Source: Merismopedia glauca CCAP 1448/3 (lineage in GTDB: Bacteria > Cyanobacteriota > Cyanobacteriia > Cyanobacteriales > CCAP-1448). Taken from it: a stretch of DNA of 33,426 nucleotides. The position numbers and the translations under genes were made by a program. Positions within the stretch are counted from its first letter, which is position 1. The number at the start of each line of letters is the position of its first letter. Below are positions 1,718 through 14,012 of the stretch, one piece after another. The notes beneath the pieces are model-generated. The model worked only from the letters and a program-made list of their open reading frames with translations, did not search any database and was not told where the DNA came from. The DNA is taken from contig NZ_PVWJ01000054.1 in assembly GCF_003003775.1 (NCBI RefSeq), positions 1-33,426 of the forward strand, written 5' to 3'.

Positions 1718-1776
1718 AGATGCGTTGGCGATTAAAATCGCGACTATACAAACAAAGTCCGCCTACGCGGACTTTA
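1718..1776 (+). repeat. Dispersed repeat, copy 1 (agtccgc hairpin)
   Basis: The sequence gatgcgttggcgattaaaat is followed by ctatacaaacaaagtccgcc and gcggact. It contains two small hairpins: gcgatt/aatcgc and agtccgc-ctac-gcggact. Near-identical copies lie at 7199-7253 (same strand) and about 5219-5256 (opposite strand). Loop bases vary (ctac, ctgc, gcag) while the stem is constant. Confidence 0.75.
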
Positions 1777-5197: not shown

Positions 5198-5411
5198 CCA
5201 GAATTGTCGCTTAGCATTAGTCCGCGCAGGCGGACTTCGTTTGTATAGCCGCAGGTTTCAACCTGACGGTCAAGGGCTGTCCTACCAAGGTTTGCCAATC
5301 TCATCATATCCCAGGATTGGTTGCGTTGAAGAAGGAAACCCAACCTACGAAACTAAAGCGTCCAGCATGGTATTACCACAAGTTTCAACCTGAAAGCAAA
5401 AGGGCAGGGTG
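5198..5411. other. Repeat-rich intergenic stretch next to the kinase-FGE gene
   Basis: A reverse-strand copy of the agtccgc-hairpin repeat (about 5219-5256) is followed by small self-complementary pieces such as aggtttcaacct. This stretch lies directly 3' of the putative variable region of the kinase-FGE gene. I looked here for a template repeat or a reverse transcriptase and found neither. Confidence 0.55.
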
Positions 5412-7198: not shown

Positions 7199-7253
7199 GA
7201 TGCGTTGGCGATTGAAATCGCGGCTATACAAACAAAGTCCGCCTGCGCGGACT
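7199..7253 (+). repeat. Dispersed repeat, copy 3 (agtccgc hairpin)
   Basis: It begins gatgcgttggcgattgaaat, then ctatacaaacaaagtccgcc and gcggact, nearly identical to 1718-1776. It is followed at once by arm-plus-hairpin copy B. The two families are also neighbours at 5128-5256, there with the agtccgc unit inverted. Confidence 0.75.
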
Positions 7254-7309
7254 TGTAATACCAAATCACTAAATATTTGCTACATATAAATTATCTGTAG
7301 GGGCGCAAA
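7254..7309 (+). repeat. Arm-plus-hairpin repeat, copy B (hairpin broken)
   Basis: The arm ataccaaatcactaaat, then tgctacatata and ctgtaggggcgcaa, matches copy A. The second half of the hairpin is missing: after gcgcaaagc the sequence diverges, so this copy is truncated. Confidence 0.7.
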
Positions 7310-7350
7310 GCATTCATTGATGTTAATTTAACGGTAAAAGCCTTGCTCCG

Positions 7351-7399
7351 CCGTGAACTCAAGTTCACGGCTCATAGCTCAAGTCCACTGAAGTGGACT
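7351..7399 (+). repeat. Double-hairpin element, copy 1
   Basis: Hairpin one is ccgtgaactcaagttcacgg (7351-7370), the linker is ctcatagctca, and hairpin two is agtccactgaagtggact (7382-7399). Each stem is perfect with a 2-nt centre. The same layout with different stem sequences occurs at 7415-7463, 12027-12076 and 13802-13848. Confidence 0.7.
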
Positions 7400-7414
7400 G
7401 AAAACAGTTCTTAG

Positions 7415-7463
7415 AGTCCTCTTTAGAGGACTTTCGCTATGAGACAGGGGTTTTCAACCCCTG
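7415..7463 (-). repeat. Double-hairpin element, copy 2 (inverted)
   Basis: Read on the minus strand, hairpin one is caggggttgaaaacccctg, the linker is tctcatagcgaa, and hairpin two is agtcctctaaagaggact. It lies 15 bases from copy 1 in the opposite orientation, upstream of the prenyltransferase gene. Both stems are perfect but differ in sequence from copy 1. Confidence 0.7.
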
Positions 7464-7566
7464 GCGGTTGTGGCTCAAAACCAGGGTGCAGCAATTATTT
7501 GAGCCTTAAGGTGATACCGAGACGGCTATCCCACAATTAATTGAAAAAAGTTATAAAATCGGACTC
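7464..7566 (+). other. Upstream region of the prenyltransferase gene
   Basis: No gene is present. An A/T-rich tataaaat at 7552-7559 resembles a -10 box, but it ends only 7 bases before the ATG, which would give a nearly leaderless transcript. No clear Shine-Dalgarno sequence is present. Confidence 0.3.
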
Positions 7567-12026: not shown

Positions 12027-12076
12027 CCAGGGGTTCAAAACCTCTGGCTCATAGCGAAAGTTATCTCAAGATGACT
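12027..12076 (+). repeat. Double-hairpin element, copy 3
   Basis: Hairpin one contains caggggttcaaaacctctg (12028-12046), the linker is gctcatagcgaa, and hairpin two is agttatctcaagatgact (12059-12076). Relative to copy 2, changes on the two sides of hairpin two still allow pairing through a G-T pair. It lies just after the haloperoxidase stop codon. Confidence 0.65.
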
Positions 12077-13631: not shown

Positions 13632-14012
13632 ATCTCAGAAACGCAATATATTCTGAGAAAAGTCTGCCATAAAGTTAATTATCTGTTTCATAAGCTAAAA
13701 CACATCTAAGAAAGCATATTTAACTTTAACAAAACTCTTGTGGGACGGGCATCTTGACCGCCGTAAGTATGCAATTTCAATGTGGAACAGCTTACCTCAA
13801 ATCCACTTAAGTGGACTTCAGCTATCAGCCTGGAACTCAAGTTCCAGGCGAGGCTTGAGCAAAGCCAGAGTCTCTGTTTCTAGATTATTTACCCTCAACT
13901 AACCCTCTTCTCGATCCACCTTTGAGCAAACTTTGTTAACTTTCTTGTAGATTTGTGAGAAATTTCTGATAAAATCAAAAACAAAGGTTAATATTACTTA
14001 GTAAAATAATTA
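13632..14012. other. Intergenic region between petM and ycf39
   Basis: The middle holds an inverted copy of the double-hairpin element (13802-13848). The last 90 bases are AT-rich, with tgataaaat at about 13968 as a possible -10 box for ycf39. I see no small gene. Confidence 0.45.
13802..13848 (-). repeat. Double-hairpin element, copy 4
   Basis: Read on the minus strand, hairpin one is cctggaacttgagttccagg, the linker is ctgatagctgaag, and hairpin two is tccacttaagtgga. The layout and linker match copies 1-3, and both stems pair perfectly with their own sequence. Confidence 0.7.

Follow-up and report, generated by a model that had tools for sequence, protein, structure and literature searches.

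The draft genome of Merismopedia glauca CCAP 1448/3 contains a family of dispersed modules, each made of two hairpins joined by a conserved linker. In many bacteria such repeats adjoin the genes of one little-studied group of IS200-like transposases and are therefore probably the DNA substrate of those enzymes. On the reading we favor, with a probability of roughly 0.7 on the sequence evidence presented here, the module would be a twin-hairpin, REP-like single-stranded DNA substrate, its cognate enzyme would be a Y1/HUH TnpA of subclass 1.2, and module and gene together would form a REPtron-like locus. The module has a constant architecture and covarying stems, accompanies the TnpA genes in a clade-specific manner, and is absent near the ordinary IS200/IS605 loci that were tested.

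The two-hairpin module in the window and the genome

The window, i.e., the whole 33,426-nucleotide stretch of DNA analyzed, is part of a 5.2-Mb draft genome and contains four copies of the module (A to D), each with the order hairpin 1, linker CTSATAGC, a few bases, and hairpin 2. Copy A (7351-7399, forward strand), the best-scoring window copy with 85.8 bits in the covariance model, consists of hairpin 1 at 7351..7370 (CCGTGAACT-CA-AGTTCACGG), the linker at 7371..7378 (CTCATAGC), and hairpin 2 at 7382..7399 (AGTCCACT-GA-AGTGGACT). Its inverted partner, copy B (7413..7463, reverse strand, 54.9 bits), has a hairpin 1 starting with CAGGGGTT, the linker CTCATAGC, and a hairpin 2 starting with AGTCCTCT. 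A and B form one inverted pair with a gap of 13 bases, an arrangement frequent in the family, and the pair is placed between two divergent ORF starts. Copies C (12027..12076, forward strand, 35.3 bits, stems imperfect) and D (13799..13848, reverse strand, 67.3 bits) are single modules.

Allowing up to three mismatches, the linker pattern matched the window four times against 0.86 expected, a number reached in 1 of 100 shuffles. Genome-wide, the exact pattern CTCATAGCTNAAGT, which is blind to the stems, matched 18 times and its reversed control not once, and both hairpins were present with at most one mismatch per stem at 16 of the 18 sites; the other two (L010 and L013) are interrupted or decayed. 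The sequence-only reading had described four copies with a conserved order of parts and had regarded a linker confined to them as the outcome that would count against it. The window positions and the exact-linker matches bear out the description, and the linker recurs far beyond the four copies.

The covariance-model search of this genome and its relatives that the same reading had proposed as a check recovered about 80 modules here and further ones in relatives. For the first model, we used the 11 of 18 aligned modules whose palindromes are even, because a MAFFT alignment of mixed copies displaced one arm by one base; this model may be biased towards even palindromes, and other modules were still found. 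It returned at least 79 rows at ≥27 bits in this genome (150 of 2,242 candidates scored), all four window copies included, and a second model returned at least 80 modules at E ≤1e-5 (91 candidates scored). The modules are dispersed, often as inverted pairs, with 25 distinct inward doublets identified by script in this genome.

When the whole window was scanned generically for twin hairpins, seven rows resulted, corresponding to A, B, D, the inner hairpins of A and B taken as one twin, and three modules that belong to a second type, here called beta; copy C was missed because its stems are imperfect. The beta-type modules lie at 1728..1775 (forward strand; a GCGATT hairpin, the linker GACTATACAAAC, and an AGTCCGC hairpin) and, as delimited by the generic scan, at 5219..5265 (reverse strand) and 7208..7254 (forward strand). 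They are present in the window although PF01797 gave no beta-group TnpA in this draft genome. Elsewhere in the window, the ORF at 175-1173 encodes a DDE_3 (IS630-like) transposase and an overlapping ORF at 1152-1472 looks transposase-like by eye.

Association of the modules with subclass 1.2 TnpA genes

Five Y1 transposase genes were identified in this genome with PF01797, which we label as one alpha, two IS200-like, and two RAYT-like. The alpha gene (C181:6535-6978) has one module 75 bp away and a second just beyond. Its product (P0001, 148 aa) scores 102.6 bits with PF01797 and carries the motifs DHVH and YVQNQKTHH of a Y1 HUH protein with its catalytic tyrosine; the solved structures nearest to its predicted fold are the ISDra2 and IS608 TnpAs. 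The IS200/IS605 model NF033573 gives 89.9 bits (cutoff, 55) and the RAYT model NF047646 24.1 bits (cutoff, 80). YVQNQKTHH fits Y---Q--HH, the signature of TnpA subclass 1.2. The 2018 survey that defined this subclass characterizes it by this signature, a length of about 148 aa, and a low copy number, places it for the most part in Cyanobacteria and Bacteroidetes, and describes it as generally devoid of typical terminal IS200 structures, its entry listing no REP (PMC6006769). P0001 has the length of 148 aa, and the genomes hold one to four copies of the gene; the signature itself occurs in 25 of 26 alpha proteins, all 10 beta proteins, and 74 of 80 further loci.

A homologue of the alpha protein was found in 22 of 60 genomes, its own included (E ≤1e-10), and in 25 of 292 genomes of the phylum (E 1e-20). 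The beta proteins form a sister group with 36 to 43% identity to the query. In the tree, alpha lies to one side of a modestly supported branch (84/95), and beta does not separate as labeled, with the signature-bearing L069 placed among its members. Signature-bearing relatives also occur in Chloroflexi, Planctomycetes, Acidobacteria, Verrucomicrobia, and other phyla, many of them MAGs. The subclass 1.2 signature, as carried by part of the loci L163-L235, with many MAGs among the records, appears to span a wider range of phyla than the 2018 survey emphasized.

At 28 of 29 alpha loci, the gene has a module at most 500 bp away, the sole exception being L126; within this distance a module is found upstream in 23 loci, downstream in 26, and on both sides in 21. 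Not part of this count are two further matches and three fragments of the gene, of which L079 and L080 are accompanied by a module and L083 is not. The arrangements differ, from module-gene-module to pairs at each side. At L059:2275-2904, seven modules stand in tandem beside a TnpA gene with a 95-bp spacing.

The beta genes are flanked by a distinct two-hairpin module with the linker CTAYACAR. In a strict scan of whole loci, 24 of the 31 alpha loci had alpha modules and none had beta modules, and 9 of the 12 beta loci had beta modules and none had alpha modules; the three remaining beta loci have divergent modules by eye, and nine more distant loci gave neither type in the strict scan. Among the four other Y1 loci of this genome, the gene of the IS200 locus L020 is separated by about 1.2 kb from a beta module, and no module was found at the RAYT-like loci L022 and L023.

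The same association emerged with a generic detector blind to both linkers. It found twin hairpins within 500 bp of the gene at 35 of 39 subclass 1.2 loci (29 alpha and 10 beta; L128 and L130 were excluded for the position of their genes elsewhere in the locus), the linker being repeated at 29 of the 39, and at none of 34 loci of subclass 1.1, the ordinary IS200/IS605 type. The latter set comprised 28 loci plus six known beforehand, and L020 and L259 are one gene, giving 33 distinct loci.

A scan of named genomes confirmed at least 573 relatives, the best 80 of which were kept. Among these 80, twin hairpins lay close to the gene at 19 of the 23 cyanobacterial loci and at 24 of the 57 others, compared with 1/23 and 2/57 at a distance of 800 to 1500 bp and 0 and 0.2 per set in approximate shuffles; by the strict detector, 4 of the 23 and 33 of the 57 showed no twin hairpin. 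Repeated linkers accompanied 10/23 and 8/57 of the genes, with 0 and 1 at the far distance and none in the shuffles. The noncyanobacterial examples, several of which are MAGs, include Armatimonadetes (L195), Prosthecobacter (L193), Acidobacteria (L217 and L218), Planctomycetota (L221), and Tannerellaceae (L210).

Gene and module also co-occur at the genome level. An alpha gene was found in 13 of 60 genomes (a fragment only in G012), all of which hold at least 14 modules; of the 47 genomes with no alpha gene detected, nine hold 12 to 91 modules, 14 hold 1 to 8, and 24 none, at most 91 candidates having been scored per genome. With a cutoff of ≥10 modules, the comparison is 13/13 against 9/47 (Fisher p about 1e-7, with the cutoff set after the counts had been seen and kinship ignored in the p value). 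The nine module-rich genomes could have lost the gene, have an assembly gap at its position, or rely on another enzyme.

These loci resemble REP/BIME/REPIN sequences and their TnpA_REP (RAYT) in that many short palindromes, often in inverted pairs, accompany a low-copy Y1 transposase gene. A further possible likeness is a GTAG-like motif at the foot of a hairpin. Read on the reverse strand, the alpha unit runs hairpin 2, linker, TNAG (mostly TGAG or TTAG), hairpin 1, and the beta unit has GTAG or ATAG before hairpin 1, GTAG in most modules. In the noncyanobacterial set, a TAG within the linker at most five bases from a hairpin foot was found at 13 of 24 loci against 4.3 expected from shuffled linkers, the motif having been picked after the linkers were seen. 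TnpA_REP is described as requiring GTAG (PMC8266576), and the TAG-type motif of the twin-hairpin modules may by its resemblance act as a comparable guide.

That the modules are ordinary GTAG-tagged REPs of the kind already described, with a second hairpin that arose by chance or was added secondarily, is unlikely in our estimation. The GTAG at the hairpin 1 foot of most beta modules, the REPIN-like inverted pairs, and the existence of known cyanobacterial GTAG families would all fit. However, two TnpA groups and several phyla share a second hairpin and a linker of comparable length, alpha modules do not have GTAG as their guide, and the NF033573 and NF047646 scores place the partner with the IS200/IS605 TnpAs and not the RAYTs. 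Unlike REP/TnpA_REP, the unit comprises two hairpins with a fixed linker, and its associated enzyme belongs to subclass 1.2, close to IS200/IS605 TnpA, rather than to the class 2 of TnpA_REP. With IS200/IS605 elements such as IS608 and ISDra2 it shares the HUH-Y1 fold and the hairpins beside the gene; in contrast to these, the gene, instead of being copied along with the element, is present in one to four copies per genome and the modules in tens or more, and the gene is flanked by twin hairpins, frequently arranged as inverted pairs, instead of a single subterminal hairpin per end.

A carrier MITE and differences between copies

Seventeen distinct inverted pairs of this genome, that of the window included, lie inside a 186- to 230-bp element (mostly 205 to 208 bp) whose terminal repeats are imperfect and measure about 17 bp; in 12 of the 17, direct repeats of 8 to 12 bases are present at the ends. 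With terminal inverted repeats and target duplications (12/17 distinct copies), this carrier has the attributes of a DDE MITE. In the window it spans 7315..7522 (208 bp; ends CATTGATGTTAATTTAA / TTAAGGTGATACCGAGA), and no target duplication was detected at this copy. Since these 17 copies are carried by a DDE-like MITE, the number of copies here does not speak for mobility by TnpA. A search by positions alone revealed no longer element that could be an autonomous partner of the MITE, the terminal-repeat pattern having 38 sites with ≤1 mismatch versus 18 for the control. By eye, MITE flanks are present at 18 of the 25 doublets and absent at seven (L009, L011, L016, L045, L048, L053, and L139).

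The modules could be conceived as mere cargo of ordinary MITEs that a DDE transposase mobilizes, with no enzyme of their own, a reading to which the 17 carrier copies, the 8- to 12-nt direct repeats at 12 of them, and the flanks at most doublets lend substance. It nevertheless appears improbable to us: seven doublets have no such flanks, the single copies C and D exist, modules directly flank TnpA genes in relatives, and a MITE leaves the stem covariation between genomes unexplained.

G037 and G059, which belong to one genus, differ in the presence of a module at two sites chosen for scores unmatched in the sister genome. No clean empty site was found at either; both lie in repeat-rich stretches that yield no exact insertion point. 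In this genome, the hairpin 1 and hairpin 2 stems differ between the two ends in all 25 inward doublets (0/25 identical, against about 7.8 expected for each upon re-pairing). We considered an avoidance of long palindromes and dropped this idea, as the flanks of a single MITE recur, by eye, at 18 of the 25 doublets and the ends can match in other genomes (L113 and L121).

Two further observations concern the carrier. The MITE (7315-7522 and in L008, L017, L032, L035, L036, L043, L136, and L148) is inserted at the center of other palindromic repeats (GGCGCAAAGCTTTGCGCC and similar). In L008 and L015, the segment between the linkers looks inverted relative to the other copies, which would fit recombination at the linkers and does not prove it.

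Stem covariation and a possible mechanism

The sequence-only reading had noted that base changes on one arm of a stem are matched on the other, and had named arms varying with no compensation across the genome as the finding that would speak against it. The compensation holds across the aligned copies. In an alignment of 122 hits (112 distinct modules) drawn from 30 loci in this genome and, in relatives, 13 tnpA loci, 98.6% of the 1,546 stem cells of the distinct modules are paired, a figure favored by the fitting of the alignment to the structure, a bias from which the linker-only retrieval is free. Both sides have changed at 13 of 14 pairs, with 397 cells showing two-sided changes versus a mean of 116 in shuffled and 8 to 71 in slid alignments. 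All four Watson-Crick forms were seen at four pairs, while the outer four pairs of hairpin 2 are nearly invariant. A local series illustrates the pattern, with CCGTGAACT/AGTTCACGG in the common copies, one arm changed in L001 and L014, and both arms changed in L030. Compensatory stem changes have been reported for REPINs (PMC3116915).

Non-Watson-Crick cells comprise 6 G-T and 10 A-C. An RNA stem would favor G-U; because G-T is not commoner than A-C, hairpins formed by DNA fit better. A structured RNA element or terminator conserved through transcript folding, which two strong stems with compensatory changes might suggest, was accordingly rejected on the absence of any Rfam match at gathering scores and of a wobble excess, and is made very improbable also by the position of the A/B pair between divergent ORF starts, the frequent inverted pairs, and the adjacency of the modules to one transposase group and not another. 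Of the earlier proposal of a "mobile or RNA-level" element, the second half finds no support on these grounds; the first is supported by association, through the dispersal of the modules, the differences in their presence, the MITE with end duplications, and the flanking HUH transposase.

For the preferred reading, a single-stranded DNA substrate of subclass 1.2 TnpA, we infer from the sequence patterns a sequence of events in which binding, cutting, the strand used, the role of the guide, and transposition by TnpA are all putative. The substrate strand would be the one opposite to that given by the sequence-only reading, running hairpin 2, linker, guide, hairpin 1. Where the DNA becomes single stranded, for example at a replication fork, both hairpins would fold, and TnpA would bind the folded hairpins together with the guide and linker; its tyrosine would then cut and rejoin the strand, spreading modules and inverted pairs. 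Recognition would depend on the guide and linker together with the outer hairpin 2 pairs and the hairpin shape, so that inner stem pairs could drift as long as the arms match; indifference of the recognition to the inner stem sequence is the proposed cause of the covariation. As a second route in this genome, the MITE with its 8- to 12-base end duplications carries the pair as a passenger and accounts for much of the copy number.

Should this apply, the striking covariation would be explained with no recourse to RNA, a widespread class of cyanobacterial repeats would gain a likely enzyme, and subclass 1.2, entered with no REP in the survey's listing (PMC6006769), would gain a candidate substrate. 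More tentatively, and with the odds somewhat against so broad a claim, subclass 1.2 TnpA and its twin-hairpin modules might, in addition to IS200/IS605 and REP/TnpA_REP, represent a third type of Y1 system, present in several phyla, with clade-specific linkers recognized between the hairpins and stems free to covary. This pairing of subclass 1.2 TnpA and modules was not found in the literature searched, with most subscription journals lying outside the search. The small dispersed repeats (SDR) of Elhai et al. (2008) are reportedly short mobile repeats of cyanobacteria, and the modules are likened to them by description only.

In several modules (L004, L005, L007, L051, L150, and L151), the loop of hairpin 2 holds a small hairpin element, TTCGCGTAGCGTCACGCAGTGATA. 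This recalls the PATEs of Haloquadratum, portrayed in PMC3119063 as elements that lack a transposase and whose palindromes, related to IS605-type ends, are attacked internally by other small elements. According to the same account, PATEs differ in having near-terminal palindromes, no terminal inverted repeats, and archaeal hosts.
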